Below are positions 1,388-18,513 of a stretch of DNA of 20,353 bases, one piece after another. Where the stretch lies: positions 1 through 20,353 of the IMG/VR virus record IMGVR_UViG_3300035670_004517. One strand, written 5' to 3'. The first letter of the stretch is position 1. Each line of letters opens with the position of its first letter. The notes under the pieces were generated by a model that searched no databases, had not been told where the DNA came from, and worked only from the letters and a program-made list of their open reading frames with translations. This DNA is from a virus. The position numbers and the translations under genes were made by a program.

Positions 1388-1418
1388 GGTTTACAAGAAG
1401 TGCGATTTCATATATAAT
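1388..1418 (+). promoter_or_regulatory. Sigma70-type promoter for the nrdBA operon
   Basis: The -35 element TTTACA (1390-1395), preceded by GG, and a perfect -10 TATAAT (1413-1418) are separated by exactly 17 bases. Transcription should start near 1425, giving an untranslated leader of about 85 bases before nrdB. The same GGTTTACA-N17-TATAAT pattern recurs at four other transcription-unit boundaries in the window, which supports it. It resembles promoters read by the unmodified host polymerase, so an early-expression role is likely. Confidence 0.75.
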
Positions 1419-2490: not shown

Positions 2491-4134
2491 ATGACTTTTA
2501 ATTGGCTAAACGATGATTCAAGGACTTTCCTTAGTCGTGGTTATCTTCAAGAAGGTATGTCAGCCGAAGACCGTATTGAAGAGATTGCACAGGCTGCAGA
2601 AAAGATCCTGAATAAACCAGGATTTGCTAAGAAGTTTTACAAGTACATGATTGCAGGTTACTATAGCCTGTCGTCACCGGTCTGGTCAAACTTTGGGGTA
2701 GATCGGGGACTACCTATCTCCTGTAATGGTGTATATGTAGAAGATTCTATTGAGCAGATCCTGCAAAAGACTGCTGAAGTTGGTATGCAAACGAAGCTTG
2801 GTGCTGGGACTTCTGGTTACTTCGGTGACCTTCGCCCTCGCGGAAGCTCTATTCGAGGAGGCGGCAAAGCAGATGGACCTATTCATTATCTTCGGCTCTA
2901 TGATACTGGCACTGATGTTATTAGTCAGGGATCAGTTCGACGAGGCGCATTTGCTGCTTATCTCAATATCGATCATCCTGATATCAATGAATTCCTAGAG
3001 ATTCGTGAACCAGGAGCTACCATCCAGAACATCTCTATCGGTGTTACTATTACCGACGAGTGGATGGAGAGCATGATTACCGGTGATAAAGCAAAGCGCG
3101 AAGTCTGGGCTAAGGTTCTTCGTAAGCGTAAAGAGACCGGTTATCCTTATTTGTTCTTTACTGACACGGTGAACAACAATAAGCCAAAGGTGCTAAAGGA
3201 TCATAACTATCCAATCTATGCATCGAACCTTTGCTCTGAGATTGCACTACCATCAAGCAAAGACTGGACGTTTGTCTGTAATCTTTCCTCTATGAACCTA
3301 GTTACCTGGGACGAGTGGAAAGAGACTGATGCAGTTGAGATTATGACTTACTTCCTTGATGCCGTCATGGAGGAGTATATTCGTAAGACCAAGAATATCA
3401 AGTTCATGGAAACTGCATACAAATTTGCCAAACATTGGCGTGCACTTGGCATCGGTCAGCTCGGTTGGCATTCGTTGCTACAGCTCAAGATGATTCCTTT
3501 CGAATCATTTGAAGCGCTTGAACTTACTGAAGAAATTAGCAAATTCATCGATGAGCGTTCGCTAGCTGCATCGAAAGAAATGGCAGAAATCTATGGTGAA
3601 CCAGAAGGACTAATCGGATATGGAATTCGTAATCTCACTCGTTGCGCTATCGCTCCTACAACTAGTAGCAGTTTTATTCTTGGTCAGGTCTCGCCGTCTA
3701 TTGAACCTCTTGCATCGAATTACTTCGTAAAAGATCTTGCGAAAGGTGTGTTTACTTACAAGAATCCTTACCTTGTAGAAGTTCTTGAAGCACATGGTAA
3801 GAACGATGACGAGACATGGGATTCTATTCTTATGCGCAAAGGTTCAGTACAGCATCTCGATTTCCTTACACAGAAGGAAAGAGATGTATTCAAGACCTTC
3901 TCTGAAATCTCTCCGTTGAACGTTGTCCAACAAGCTGCTGCTCGACAATCATATATAGATCAGAGCCAGAGCTTAAATCTCATGATTCCACCAGATGCTC
4001 CGGCAAAAGATGTTAATGCCCTAATTATCGAAGGATGGAGACTCGGAGTGAAGACATTCTATTACCAACGTTCCTCAAACCCAGCACAAGAGCTTGTTCG
4101 TGATATCATGACTTGCGTCTCATGCGAGGCTTAA
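2491..4134 (+). CDS. nrdA: Ribonucleotide reductase class I, large (catalytic) subunit
   Basis: A 547-residue R1 protein that reduces ribonucleotides to deoxyribonucleotides, feeding phage DNA synthesis. The catalytic set is complete: C78 (ISCNGV) and C263 (FVCNLSS) as the active-site disulfide pair, N246/C248/E250 (NLCSEI) with C248 as the thiyl radical site, Y524-Y525 (FYYQRS) for radical transfer, and a C-terminal C542-x2-C545 pair for re-reduction by thioredoxin or glutaredoxin. It is much shorter than E. coli NrdA (761 residues). It starts directly at the core domain (WLNDDSRTFLSRGYL) and so lacks an N-terminal ATP-cone, implying loss of the usual dATP shut-off. An SD GGAG precedes the ATG. 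The downstream zinc-ribbon gene begins at the base after its stop codon. Confidence 0.96.
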   Translation: MTFNWLNDDSRTFLSRGYLQEGMSAEDRIEEIAQAAEKILNKPGFAKKFYKYMIAGYYSLSSPVWSNFGVDRGLPISCNGVYVEDSIEQILQKTAEVGMQTKLGAGTSGYFGDLRPRGSSIRGGGKADGPIHYLRLYDTGTDVISQGSVRRGAFAAYLNIDHPDINEFLEIREPGATIQNISIGVTITDEWMESMITGDKAKREVWAKVLRKRKETGYPYLFFTDTVNNNKPKVLKDHNYPIYASNLCSEIALPSSKDWTFVCNLSSMNLVTWDEWKETDAVEIMTYFLDAVMEEYIRKTKNIKFMETAYKFAKHWRALGIGQLGWHSLLQLKMIPFESFEALELTEEISKFIDERSLAASKEMAEIYGEPEGLIGYGIRNLTRCAIAPTTSSSFILGQVSPSIEPLASNYFVKDLAKGVFTYKNPYLVEVLEAHGKNDDETWDSILMRKGSVQHLDFLTQKERDVFKTFSEISPLNVVQQAAARQSYIDQSQSLNLMIPPDAPAKDVNALIIEGWRLGVKTFYYQRSSNPAQELVRDIMTCVSCEA

Positions 4135-4293
4135 TTGAGATTAGCTGAGTACTTGTTAGAGTGCGATCACTGTGGCCTGGAATCCCGGGTCATAGTGATC
4201 AACAGTAGAGAAGAGCCCGCACATTGTCCTATGTGCGGGCTTGAATCGTATAGCTCATTAATGGATGAGGATGAAGACAGTGACGACATTTAA
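4135..4293 (+). CDS. 52-residue zinc-ribbon protein with TTG start, coupled to nrdA
   Basis: A small gene between nrdA and the next gene. A TTG at 4135 follows the nrdA stop (4132-4134) directly and has GAGG at 4126-4129, five bases upstream. The frame stays open for 52 codons to TAA at 4291. The product has two CxxC knuckles, C10-x2-C13 (CDHCG) and C31-x2-C34 (CPMCG), 17 residues apart, and an acidic tail (MDEDEDSDD). Two matched knuckles with Gly at the turn are characteristic of a zinc ribbon and unlikely by chance. Translation should be coupled to nrdA. It is not NrdR, which also has an ATP-cone, but its place in an RNR operon raises the possibility of RNR-linked or transcription-linked function. 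The sequence also forms two strong hairpins, so an RNA role is the alternative. Confidence 0.7.
   Translation: MRLAEYLLECDHCGLESRVIVINSREEPAHCPMCGLESYSSLMDEDEDSDDI
4165..4242 (+). other. Two strong hairpins in tandem inside the zinc-ribbon gene
   Basis: Hairpin one pairs GATCACTGTG (4165-4174) with CATAGTGATC (4191-4200), ten pairs including one wobble. Hairpin two pairs AGCCCGCACAT (4214-4224) with ATGTGCGGGCT (4231-4241), eleven Watson-Crick pairs around a six-base TGTCCT loop. Neither is followed by a T-run, so a simple intrinsic terminator is not supported. They could mark an mRNA processing or stability element at the end of the nrd operon, or could be a by-product of the coding sequence. 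Confidence 0.5.
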
Positions 4294-4840
4294 AATCCTC
4301 CATAATTTTCCTTCTGAAATTATTCAAGTAGCAAATGAAGACTGGGGTAATTTTATTCCTATTGATAAACAAAATTATTTTAAAATAGATGAACATATGG
4401 AAATCGGCATACCTCGACCCGATAGCCCAATTTATCTAATTTTAAAAAATTATTTTTCAGACTTTAAATGTAAATTTTTAGTTAATCCCCCAAACTGTGG
4501 TCTAGGACCTGTGCATACAGATAACTCTTTAAGCTGCGGTATTAATGTTCCTATTAAAGTCAACTTAGAAAAAAGTTGTTTCTTTTCTATTAAGCCAGAT
4601 CAATCTGCCACCCTCAGAGAAGCAAAAGATGATGAAGTCATACATGGTTCTGGGGCATTAAGGTTTTTATATGAACCAGAAAAGTATGACTATTATAATC
4701 TTCGAACACCTGTAACTTTAAATAATAAATTGTGTCATGGATATTATAATTTTGACAATGAAGAGCGGGTTCTTTTAAATATTTCTTTCTCATGTAACTA
4801 TGAAGAAATGATTAATTTGATACCAGAAGATTGGTTTTAA
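4280..4840 (+). CDS. 2-oxoglutarate/Fe(II)-dependent oxygenase-like protein
   Basis: A 186-residue protein when started at GTG 4280, chosen because GAGG (4267-4270) lies nine bases upstream. ATGs at 4265 and 4271 are in frame but have no well-placed SD. It shows the facial triad of double-stranded beta-helix oxygenases: H79-x-D81 (GPVHTDN) and a distal H153 (LCHGYYNF), with R163 ten residues further on for the 2OG carboxylate (EERVLLNISF). Such enzymes hydroxylate or otherwise oxidise an unknown substrate; marine phages carry many. The 5' end overlaps the zinc-ribbon gene by 14 bases. Its base composition is clearly more A+T-rich than nrdA, which suggests a separately acquired gene. The substrate cannot be inferred. 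Confidence 0.7.
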   Translation: MTTFKILHNFPSEIIQVANEDWGNFIPIDKQNYFKIDEHMEIGIPRPDSPIYLILKNYFSDFKCKFLVNPPNCGLGPVHTDNSLSCGINVPIKVNLEKSCFFSIKPDQSATLREAKDDEVIHGSGALRFLYEPEKYDYYNLRTPVTLNNKLCHGYYNFDNEERVLLNISFSCNYEEMINLIPEDWF

Positions 4841-4891
4841 ACGTCTCATATATAAGTCGTAAATGTGCTTTACGTACGATATATGAGGCGT
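4841..4891 (+). promoter_or_regulatory. Nested hairpin sequestering the ribosome binding site of the GIY-YIG gene
   Basis: Starting at the base after the preceding stop codon, 4841-4853 pairs with 4879-4891 over 13 base pairs (one G-U). Inside, CGTAAA (4858-4863) pairs with TTTACG (4869-4874) around a five-base loop, separated from the outer stem by a 4x4 internal loop. The right arm contains GAGG (4885-4888), the only Shine-Dalgarno for the ATG at 4893, which begins one base after the helix. In long transcripts reading through from upstream, the site would be buried. There is no T-run, so it is not a standard terminator. T4 homing endonuclease genes such as I-TevI are known to use RBS-sequestering hairpins. 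Confidence 0.75.
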
Positions 4892-4892
4892 T

Positions 4893-5327
4893 ATGTGGTA
4901 TTATAAAAATGAGGCTTACGAGCCGACTGAAGAAGAGCTAAAGCAGTGGGTGGGTTTCGTATATGTTATTACGGATAAATCCAACGACAAAATGTATGTC
5001 GGAAAGAAGACCTTCTGGTCAAAGAAGACATTACCACCACTCAAAGGAAAAACAAGAAAGCGGAGAAGTACCGTCGAATCTGATTGGAAAACCTACTACG
5101 GATCCAGCGATCTTGTTAAACAGCTACTTGTCGAACATGGGGAACAGAACTTTCATCGCGAGATATTATATTTCTGTCGATCAAAGGGAGAGATGGGATT
5201 CCTCGAGGCAAAAGAGCAGTTCGCTAGAAATGTTCTGCTAGATGACCGTTATTATAACGGAATAATAAACTGTCGTGTTCATAGAAATCATGTAAGGGGT
5301 TTACGAGACTCTTTAGATGATTTATAA
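4893..5327 (+). CDS. GIY-YIG family endonuclease
   Basis: A 144-residue protein with a GIY-YIG nuclease core. The first motif is GFVYVI (21-26, Y24), the second MYVGKK (34-39, Y35 and G37). Conserved downstream segments include ESDWKTYYGSS (62-72), and FLEAKEQF (103-110) with E105 as the probable metal-binding glutamate and N122 near the end of the domain. There is little beyond the catalytic domain, so any DNA-recognition part is very small, unlike full homing endonucleases such as I-TevI. It resembles free-standing GIY-YIG proteins I recall from T4-like phages. It lies between an oxygenase gene and rnh, with no sign of a surrounding intron. Translation initiation seems controlled by the hairpin before it. 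A role in gene homing, recombination or host DNA attack is inference. Confidence 0.8.
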   Translation: MWYYKNEAYEPTEEELKQWVGFVYVITDKSNDKMYVGKKTFWSKKTLPPLKGKTRKRRSTVESDWKTYYGSSDLVKQLLVEHGEQNFHREILYFCRSKGEMGFLEAKEQFARNVLLDDRYYNGIINCRVHRNHVRGLRDSLDDL

Positions 5328-5353
5328 TGGTGAGGAATTAACGGGAGTATACT

Positions 5354-6205
5354 ATGATTCTACTTGACTTCTCTGGTATTGCCATTGCACCAATCGTAAT
5401 GGGTCAAGCCAAATATGATGATGTGAACCTTATCCGTCACATGATCCTAAATTCTGTACGCATGTATCGTCAGAAGTTTAAAGACTATGGTGAAATGGTT
5501 ATTGTCGCTGACGGTGGTGGCAATTGGCGTAAAGAGGTTTATCCTGAGTACAAGGGTAAGCGTAAACAAAATCGGGATGAGTCTAAGATCGATTGGGATC
5601 TGGCATTCAAGAACATTACGACTGTTCTTGATGAGATTAAAGAGAATATGCCTTGGAAGGTTATTCACCAATGGGGCTGCGAGGCTGACGACTCTATTGC
5701 AGAGATTGTTAAGTGGACCCAAGAGTTTGGTAACTATGAAAAGGTTATGATTGTCTCTTCTGACCACGACTTTATCCAACTGCAAAAGTATGGTAATGTG
5801 GAACAGTTCTCGCCTGTCACTAAAAAGAAAGTAAAGAACGAGAATCCCCGACTGTACCAAGCAGAGCAGATCCTTGGTGGTTGTAGTGGTGACGGTGTTC
5901 CTAACGTTCTCTCTGACGATGATACTTTCCTCGTCGAAGGTAAGCGTCAGAATGTTCTGTCGGCTAAGAAGAAAGCAGCATTGCTTGAAGATCCGAAAGC
6001 GCTTGGTGAACAGGTCTACCGCAATTATATCCGTAACAAAAAGATGATTGTTCTTACAGAAGAGTCAGAATGTCCTGATTCTGTAAAGCAAGAAATCATA
6101 AATAAATTCGTAACACAGAAGGTAAACGCTCGTAATAAGGTTCTCCCCTATCTTATCTCGAAGCAATGCCGCCTGCTGGTTGAAGTAGTAGAGGAATTCT
6201 TTTAA
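5354..6205 (+). CDS. rnh: Rnh-type RNase H / 5'-3' exonuclease (FEN family)
   Basis: A 283-residue protein, close in length to T4 RNase H (305). It belongs to the FEN/5' nuclease family, which in T4 removes RNA primers and flaps from lagging-strand fragments. The acidic metal site is intact: D5 (LLDFSG), D53 (VADGGGNWRKEVYPEYK, followed by the conserved basic residues R59, K60, K67 and R70), E110/D112/D113 (CEADDS), D137 and D139 (SSDHDF) and D180 in the helix-hairpin-helix turn GDGVPN (179-184). A good SD (GGGAG) precedes ATG 5354. The downstream gene starts one base after its stop codon. The assignment as replication nuclease is strong from motif order; the specific symbol is by analogy with T4. 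Confidence 0.9.
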   Translation: MILLDFSGIAIAPIVMGQAKYDDVNLIRHMILNSVRMYRQKFKDYGEMVIVADGGGNWRKEVYPEYKGKRKQNRDESKIDWDLAFKNITTVLDEIKENMPWKVIHQWGCEADDSIAEIVKWTQEFGNYEKVMIVSSDHDFIQLQKYGNVEQFSPVTKKKVKNENPRLYQAEQILGGCSGDGVPNVLSDDDTFLVEGKRQNVLSAKKKAALLEDPKALGEQVYRNYIRNKKMIVLTEESECPDSVKQEIINKFVTQKVNARNKVLPYLISKQCRLLVEVVEEFF

Positions 6206-7210: not shown

Positions 7211-7239
7211 TTTACAGATCCATAGTCCGCTGATATAAT
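7211..7239 (+). promoter_or_regulatory. Sigma70-type promoter
   Basis: GGGG precedes TTTACA (7211-7216), then a 17-base spacer and TATAAT (7234-7239), continuing ATTAAAGTGATT. It follows the stop of the gene at 6881-7207 and lies 37 bases before ATG 7277. The -10 and downstream bases are nearly the same as those of the promoter at 17458-17486. Confidence 0.8.
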
Positions 7240-7276: not shown

Positions 7277-7834
7277 ATGAATATCTTCATCTTGGATAAG
7301 AACCCAATCAAAGCCGCACAGCTCCAGTGCGATAAGCATATCGTAAAGATGGTTCTAGAGTCAGCACAGATGCTATCTACTGCACATCGTGTACTAGATG
7401 GTAAGCTTACAAAGGTTCCATCAAAGTCTGGTAAGACTAGTGTAAAAGGTTGGATCCTTCCCGACGAACGTGAGAATCTTCTCTATAAGGCAGTTCACGT
7501 CGGTCATCCTTGCACTGTCTGGACTATGGAGTCTGTACAGAATTATATATGGCACTACGATCACTTCCAAGCTCTTGCAACTGAGTTCGAATATAGATAC
7601 GAGAAAAAGCATAAGTCTTGGGTAGATCTAGAAGAAGCTCTGTCTATTCCTCCTAGGAATATTCCTATGGGACCTCTTACGCCATTTAAACTTGCTATGG
7701 GTGCAGCACCAGAGTGTATTAATCCGCACGATCCGGTTGGTTCGTATCGTGCGTTCTATCAAACAAAACAAGACCGCTTCTCCATGGATTGGACTAAGCG
7801 AGATATTCCGGAATGGTTTAAAAAGGTAGCATGA
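7277..7834 (+). CDS. Conserved phage protein of unknown function (MNIF-LD-NP family)
   Basis: A 185-residue protein directly behind a promoter, with a G-rich SD-like stretch (AGGACGGG) upstream. The N-terminus MNIFILDKNPIKAAQLQCDK, followed by HIVKMVLESAQMLSTAHR, is a highly recognisable pattern I recall from marine T4-like phages, where it is normally left as hypothetical. The conserved Cys18-Asp-Lys-His set, a later HVGHPCTVW, and a third conserved part near PMGPLTPFKLAMG give several His, Cys and Asp residues that could bind metal or nucleic acid, but I know of no demonstrated activity. The next gene overlaps by an ATGA-like junction at 7831-7834. High confidence as a gene, none for function. 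Confidence 0.85.
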   Translation: MNIFILDKNPIKAAQLQCDKHIVKMVLESAQMLSTAHRVLDGKLTKVPSKSGKTSVKGWILPDERENLLYKAVHVGHPCTVWTMESVQNYIWHYDHFQALATEFEYRYEKKHKSWVDLEEALSIPPRNIPMGPLTPFKLAMGAAPECINPHDPVGSYRAFYQTKQDRFSMDWTKRDIPEWFKKVA

Positions 7835-18174: not shown

Positions 18175-18250
18175 GGTTCCGTAGCTCAGTGGATAGAGCA
18201 TCCGCCTTCTAAGCGGTAGGTCGAGGGTTCGAATCCTTCCGGGACCGCCA
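18175..18250 (+). tRNA. tRNA-Arg (anticodon TCT)
   Basis: A 76-base cloverleaf with the encoded CCA. The acceptor GGTTCCG (18175-18181) pairs with CGGGACC, the anticodon loop is CTTCTAA with TCT at positions 34-36, the T arm is GAGGG-TTCGAAT-CCTTC and the discriminator is G. The anticodon stem has a T-T mismatch at its outer end. It reads AGA codons, which are rare in many bacteria and common in this window, so it likely supports phage translation. Confidence 0.92.
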
Positions 18251-18255
18251 ATCTC

Positions 18256-18332
18256 GCCCCTGTAGGCCAATAGGTAGAGTCAGGAGACTTAAAATCTTCG
18301 TAGTGTCGGTTCGAGTCCGACTGGGGGCACCA
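18256..18332 (+). tRNA. tRNA with TAA anticodon (Leu by codon) but short variable loop
   Basis: A 77-base cloverleaf with CCA: acceptor GCCCCTG (18256-18262) with TGGGGGC, anticodon stem GGAGA/TCTTC around CTTAAAA (TAA at 34-36), T arm GTCGG-TTCGAGT-CCGAC and discriminator A. The variable region is only about five bases. Genuine leucine tRNAs normally have a long variable arm, so the anticodon and body do not match. The D arm is also poorly paired. Confidence 0.8.
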
Positions 18333-18341
18333 ATCAATTCT

Positions 18342-18433
18342 GGGAGTGAGACTGGGTAGTTAGAGAGGCCTTATAAGCCTTTTAGCGCCAGATTAGCGTT
18401 CTTGACAGGGTTCGAGTCCCTGCACTCCTACCA
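18342..18433 (+). tRNA. Class II-type tRNA with TAT anticodon (Ile by codon)
   Basis: A 92-base tRNA with CCA. The acceptor GGGAGTG (18342-18348) pairs with CACTCCT (one G-U), the anticodon stem GAGGC/GCCTT encloses CTTATAA with TAT at 34-36, and the T arm is CAGGG-TTCGAGT-CCCTG. A 24-base variable arm (18382-18405) forms a five-pair stem, AGCGC with GCGTT. Long arms belong to Leu, Ser and Tyr tRNAs, so a TAT anticodon is unexpected. The D stem is weak (two to three pairs), so the structure may be divergent. Confidence 0.75.
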
Positions 18434-18437
18434 ATTC

Positions 18438-18513
18438 GCTCCTGTAGCTCAGCGGTTAGAGCTGGGCGCTCATAACGCCTAGGTCCGGGGTTCGAATCCC
18501 TGCGGGAGCACCA
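18438..18513 (+). tRNA. tRNA with CAT anticodon (elongator Met, or Ile2)
   Basis: A 76-base cloverleaf with CCA: acceptor GCTCCTG (18438-18444) with CGGGAGC, anticodon stem GGGCG/CGCCT around CTCATAA (CAT), T arm CGGGG-TTCGAAT-CCCTG and discriminator A. The paired first base rules out an initiator. C4-G69 and C5-G68 are the pairs reported to let TilS choose tRNA-Ile2, so decoding of AUA after lysidine modification is possible. Confidence 0.9.

Follow-up and report, generated by a model that had tools for sequence, protein, structure and literature searches.

The window analysed here is a fragment of 20,353 bases from a marine T4-like virus, with T4-type genes. On its plus strand, nrdB (1510-2478) and nrdA (2491-4134), both assigned by NCBIfam ribonucleotide reductase models and synteny, are followed by a zinc-ribbon ORF (4135-4293), the variable ORF191 (4265-4840), a nested hairpin directly 3' of it, the gene of a SegE-type GIY-YIG nuclease of 144 aa (4893..5327) and, as the next gene of the operon, a T4-type RNase H/flap exonuclease gene (5354..6205; Pfam PF02739 and PF09293). 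The nuclease protein matches Pfam PF19835 (SegE_GIY-YIG; E 7.9e-37, 126.7 bits against a cut-off of 25), carries GIY-YIG-type residues that are invariant in alignment A1 (including Y24, Y35, G37 and N122) and also matches phrog_447, whose label as NAD synthetase is apparently an error. No solved relatives were found by sequence. An Rfam scan of the window returned tRNAs as the sole families, and three tRNA genes, Arg(tct), Leu(taa) and Met(cat), lie at 18175-18513.

The packing of nrdB, nrdA, the zinc-ribbon ORF, ORF191, the nuclease gene and the RNase H gene on one strand provides sequence-level evidence for a read-through location, and no terminator-like site was found on the plus strand between the interior of nrdB and the hairpin. 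The candidate source of read-through transcripts is a sigma70-type promoter-like site in the gap before nrdB (TTTACA-17-TATAAT, 1390..1418, plus strand), which is purely a consensus match (11/12) in a region where such sites are no more numerous than expected by chance. Two other sites that are likewise consensus matches only lie at 5300-5328, where the nuclease gene ends ahead of RNase H, and at 7211-7239, with a TG before the -10 element and ahead of an ORF at 7277. An interpretation of the zinc-ribbon ORF as an extension of NrdA through stop-codon read-through was discarded, as the frame of the ORF differs among relatives.

Most close relatives share the order nrdB, nrdA, zinc-ribbon ORF, an optional ORF, GIY-YIG gene and RNase H, and among the 80 relatives with enough upstream sequence, essentially all have the GIY-YIG gene 5' of RNase H (the one doubtful case, L141, has 1.5 kb upstream and no match). 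Each of 10 genomes searched holds a single copy, and neither sporadic presence nor clear empty sites, the pattern of mobile homing endonucleases, was found at this locus. Given this synteny and the one copy in each of ten genomes, the nuclease gene appears to be resident in the operon and conserved there, unlike homing genes with their sporadic distribution. That the hairpin arrived together with a homing gene was rejected in view of the conserved synteny and the lack of clear empty sites.

The hairpin (4840-4892) occupies nearly the whole leader between the upstream stop codon (4838-4840) and the nuclease ATG (4893-4895). In its outer stem the left arm (4840..4853) pairs with the right arm (4879..4892) over 14 bp if the pair of A4840, the last stop-codon base, with T4892 is included and over 13 bp otherwise, with one G.U pair (T4844-G4888). 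The inner stem-loop (4856..4877) consists of 6 bp between 4858-4863 and 4869-4874, a further pairing of 4856-4857 with 4876-4877, and a loop at 4864-4868. The hairpin has a minimum free energy (MFE) of -23.7 kcal/mol, compared to -11.5 +/- 2.6 in dinucleotide shuffles (z -4.7; 0/200 as low), and none of the inverted repeats found in the window is longer. Its rank by raw 76-nt MFE is only 155 among 10,140 window positions because GC-rich stretches fold lower. Folding and shuffles thus bear out the sequence-only reading, which had described a 13-bp outer and a 6-bp inner stem with the Shine-Dalgarno (SD) sequence GAGG in the right arm. This GAGG (4885..4888) lies 4 nt 5' of the ATG and was rightly taken for the only ribosome site, with no other purine-rich SD-like site found in the leader. 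On every read-through RNA tested it is predicted to be unpaired with a probability of 0.0003, compared to 0.86 for RNAs starting at 4856, 4860, 4862 or 4864 and 0.95 for a start at 4858.

Two other hairpins lie upstream, inside the zinc-ribbon ORF. One is a 16-bp hairpin (GATCACTGTGGCCTGG-AATC-CCGGGTCATAGTGATC) at 4168-4203 by gene coordinates (4165-4200 in the numbering of the inverted-repeat search), 33 nt past the start of the nrdA stop codon, and its stability far exceeds that of synonymous recodings (z -7.9, 0/3000). It is listed in the window and in L002, L003, L089, L091, L096, L098, L106, L111, L271 and L278, and it is kept in 11 relatives via compensatory changes, some of them altering amino acids, with one cell of one pair broken. 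The other is a perfect hairpin of 11-12 bp at ~4213-4242 (AGCCCGCACAT...ATGTGCGGGCT), and together the two give the window its minimum in 76-nt folding energy (-47.5). The 16-bp hairpin may be as interesting as the one before the nuclease gene.

The left outer arm of the nuclease hairpin holds three overlapping promoter registers. The sequence-only reading had proposed a late promoter in this arm and named the octamer TATATAAG (4849-4856). The element that aligns with relatives is CATATATA at 4847-4854, 2 nt upstream, and it was therefore preferred over both TATATAAG and TATAAGTC. The proposed location of a promoter in the left arm is supported: many relatives carry an exact NATAAATA in the left arm, and CATATATA also occurs at a conserved late-promoter site of the clade. 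CATATATA matches TATAAATA at 6/8 positions, and the window contains it 4 times where 1.8 are expected by chance. In the window's clade the octamer in register is CATATATA, CATAAATA, TATAGATA or GATAGATA, and in the clade leader alignment its first base lies 46 nt 5' of the ATG in six lineages. CATATATA itself is found in register in the window and in L084, L091, L003, L106, L111, L158, L260 and L271, with varying adjoining bases. In 20-kb pieces of three clade phages, on which our check of clade promoters drew, TATAAATA precedes virion genes, and NATAAATA, as well as CATATATA in register, stands before structural genes of the clade. For a tail-sheath-like gene of these three phages, so named from its conserved N-terminus and position and not from a profile result, the octamer exactly 60 nt 5' of the ATG is TATAAATA, CATATATA or GATATATA. 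Because of the clade octamers in register and this site at -60, CATATATA at 4847-4854 is plausible as a late promoter. T4 late promoters begin at -13 and their octamer spans -13 to -6 (PMC2988020), and NATAAATA is used as a late promoter by cyanophages (PMC2984593). By the T4 geometry, a 5-nt spacer (4855..4859) would separate the octamer from a predicted late transcription start at 4860. As GAGG is freed from every start tried between 4856 and 4864, the conclusion does not depend on the exact start; the late RNA predicted for the window leaves the SD free and has a partly paired AUG.

We propose that early or middle transcripts from upstream would run through nrdB, nrdA, the zinc-ribbon ORF and ORF191 and carry both arms of the hairpin, so that GAGG would be locked in the stem of 13-14 bp and no nuclease made. 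At late times, transcription by the late RNA polymerase of the phage would initiate from CATATATA, itself part of the left arm, and transcripts starting at ~4860 would lack this arm, be unable to form the outer stem and be translated. We infer from the sequence the use of CATATATA in this leader, the precise start position and the altered translation.

Four scans of viral contigs yielded 177 distinct leaders of the GIY-YIG gene family, and in a large subset of them NATAAATA and the 5 nt after it, a late promoter of T4 type, form the left arm and the right arm carries the ribosome site. A rule-based sort placed 45 leaders in a class with promoter and strong arm pairing (a few of these, e.g., L208 and L218, probably being chance matches within coding sequence), 16 in a class with promoter and without strong pairing, 29 in a class with the octamer right at the ATG and 58 in a class that overlaps the upstream stop codon, leaving 29 that belong to none of these. 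An octamer with at most 1 mismatch to TATAAATA is present at -24 to -40 in 39/177 leaders, or 21 once near-copies were removed at a threshold of 75% identity. In these 21, the duplex of the octamer plus its five following bases (N5) with the remaining leader averages -6.0 kcal/mol for the leader's own partner and -2.9 for swapped ones, with 0/20,000 permutations as low, and in the window's clade alone (14 leaders) the values are -9.7 and -7.0 (p 0.00015). In 26 leaders picked by hand as an extended set, the first N5 position pairs as T-A, A-T, G-C and C-G, and such a variety of pair types implies changes on both sides. The check for compensatory changes that the sequence-only reading had called for thus finds that diverged relatives keep the pairing between promoter arm and ribosome-site arm with differing sequences.

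The folding energy of promoter-bearing leaders is mostly -6 to -14 for the full leader and near 0 for the late version. As a control we took genes other than the nuclease that follow NATAAATA in the same loci, and only 3/30 of them pair as strongly, compared to 11/16 GIY-YIG leaders (Fisher p 8e-5). The gain in SD accessibility from read-through to late RNA is 0.37 for 38 GIY-YIG leaders, hand-chosen for a promoter-like octamer, and 0.11 for other late genes (p 6e-5). Two other genes, at ~3476 of L243 and ~2611 of L258, lie behind TATAAATA with the same hairpin of promoter arm and SD arm, so genes besides that of the nuclease may use the device. Since the same arrangement is rebuilt with different letters in many relatives, it is very probable that the hairpin is a timing switch for the nuclease of the I-TevI type. 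The swap tests, the pair types and the presence of NATAAATA in the left arm of relatives support this reading, as it had been put forward from the sequence.

The alternative that survives best, though we consider it unlikely, is that the switch has decayed in this particular phage, leaving the hairpin with a dead octamer and a gene that is merely poorly translated. The two mismatches of the octamer would fit such decay, as would the weak SD matches of the nearest hairpin-bearing relatives L084 and L091 and the lack of the whole leader in close relatives. L002, L085, L088 and L104, with proteins 92% identical, have neither ORF191 nor the hairpin, and the stop codon of their zinc-ribbon ORF overlaps the nuclease ATG (TTAATG). 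Their nrdA is 99% identical to that of the window, as is that of L084 and L086, and the two groups differ by ORF191 and the hairpin; the loss or gain of both among near-identical phages is, judged from these genomes, a switch of expression mode. In some other leaders a promoter is present and a strong stem absent, and leader types switch often on the protein tree, which is poorly resolved and excludes the window row. These points, together with the further copies of CATATATA in the window and the partly paired AUG, also weigh against the timing switch itself. Decay is nevertheless difficult to reconcile with the register of CATATATA, which is held in nine leaders including the window while neighbouring bases change, and with the occurrence of the same octamer at the conserved late-promoter site of the clade.

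It is still less likely that the palindrome is a DNA operator at which the nuclease or another protein binds and represses an overlapping promoter. I-TevI and probably I-TevII and I-TevIII do bind operators overlapping their own promoters (PMC2988022), and the near-palindrome of the window covers a promoter-like site. However, an operator should keep its sequence, and the arm sequences diverge widely among nucleases of 50-90% identity while their pairing is kept, which argues against this explanation. An operator could coexist with the RNA switch.

We give slightly less credence again to a role in mRNA processing or stability, as an RNase III/E site or a protector of the 3' end of the ORF191 message, that would have nothing to do with timing. 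Phage operons contain processing sites, and the hairpin is a stable stem that separates two operon genes, but such an element would leave unexplained why, across independent leaders, the left arm is a late-promoter octamer plus 5 nt and the right arm holds the SD. An intrinsic terminator, despite the position of the hairpin between genes, can be rejected as already contradicted by the sequence, since no U run follows the stem, which is AT-rich with a right arm reaching the ATG and is not among the terminator-like sites detected.

Returning to the timing switch, a different late design seems to exist among relatives. A late-promoter octamer lies exactly 13 nt before the ATG in 15/112 non-redundant GIY-YIG leaders (including L035, L066, L188, L194, L199, L200, L204, L205, L214 and L217), while every other distance occurs in at most 5, and spacer and context are variable. 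With the T4 geometry, position +1 would be the A of the ATG, so the late mRNAs of this class would be leaderless. It is conceivable, though we hold this only tentatively, that the SegE-like GIY-YIG protein of marine T4-like phages has ceased to be a homing protein and is now a late nuclease residing in the nucleotide-metabolism operon, maybe with a gp49-like job, and that its late-only synthesis was solved twice, by a hairpin with a promoter as left arm and, in other lineages, by leaderless messages. That the protein replaces endonuclease VII (gp49) was considered separately and dropped, as the mixed pattern of PF02945 is only a weak hint: 9/14 cultured GIY-bearing phage genomes (T4 not counted) have no match, 4 have a clear one and phiM12 one below threshold.

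If the timing switch operates as proposed, a device known from only a few T-even genes would also be present in a large group of uncultured marine phages, in which promoter DNA and RNA hairpin would co-evolve across many viruses because the same bases serve as late promoter and stem. The leaders of relatives form a natural mutation set for the limits of late-promoter variation. Bench tests should be easy, since leaders comparable to that of the window are available from T4 segE and the cultured cyanophage S-SCSM1. The switch also raises the question why a nuclease with a fixed place must be withheld until late infection.

The mechanism itself is already known from I-TevI, segB, Aeh1 mobE and T4 e, soc and 49, and the leader studied here is predicted to function like theirs. 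The SD of T4 I-TevI, I-TevII and I-TevIII likewise lies in the right arm of a hairpin, with the nuclease gene inside an early or middle unit and, as in the layout proposed for the window, a late or middle promoter whose transcripts omit the left arm (PMC2988022); these genes are intron-encoded, whereas that of the window is free-standing, without an intron, in a marine T4-like operon. T4 segB and mobE of Aeromonas phage Aeh1 are free-standing endonuclease genes with the SD in a hairpin as well (PMC2988022; PMC3014915), but of other nuclease subfamilies (HNH for mobE) and at other loci, and the mobE hairpin was tested experimentally while that of the window is known from sequence. T4 e, soc and 49 are late genes within early read-through that have a hairpin over the ribosome site and a late promoter in or after its left arm (PMC3014915), and differ in not being GIY-YIG genes.

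T4 segE encodes the same nuclease type, with 29% identity to the window protein, and TATAAATA 36 nt 5' of its ATG pairs with the part of the leader that follows it (predicted SD accessibility 0.32 in read-through and 0.96 in late RNA), but its immediate upstream neighbour, inh, has the opposite orientation, so no read-through is expected at this locus. The GIY-YIG gene of Synechococcus phage S-SCSM1 (MK867354.2, 98328; 40% identity) comes after nrdB and a small ORF, comparable to the window, and its leader, TCTAAATA-TTCCA|GACAATGGAATATATGA-ATG, has an SD-like TGGAA in the right arm with a predicted unpaired probability of 0.01 in read-through and 0.92 in late RNA; here, the gene follows a terminator-like stem with a T run. 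The literature searched, which included few subscription papers, yielded no earlier reports of hairpins at this marine gene. New compared to these systems are the spread of the device over a syntenic, single-copy marine gene and the alternative late design of other relatives, which is apparently leaderless.
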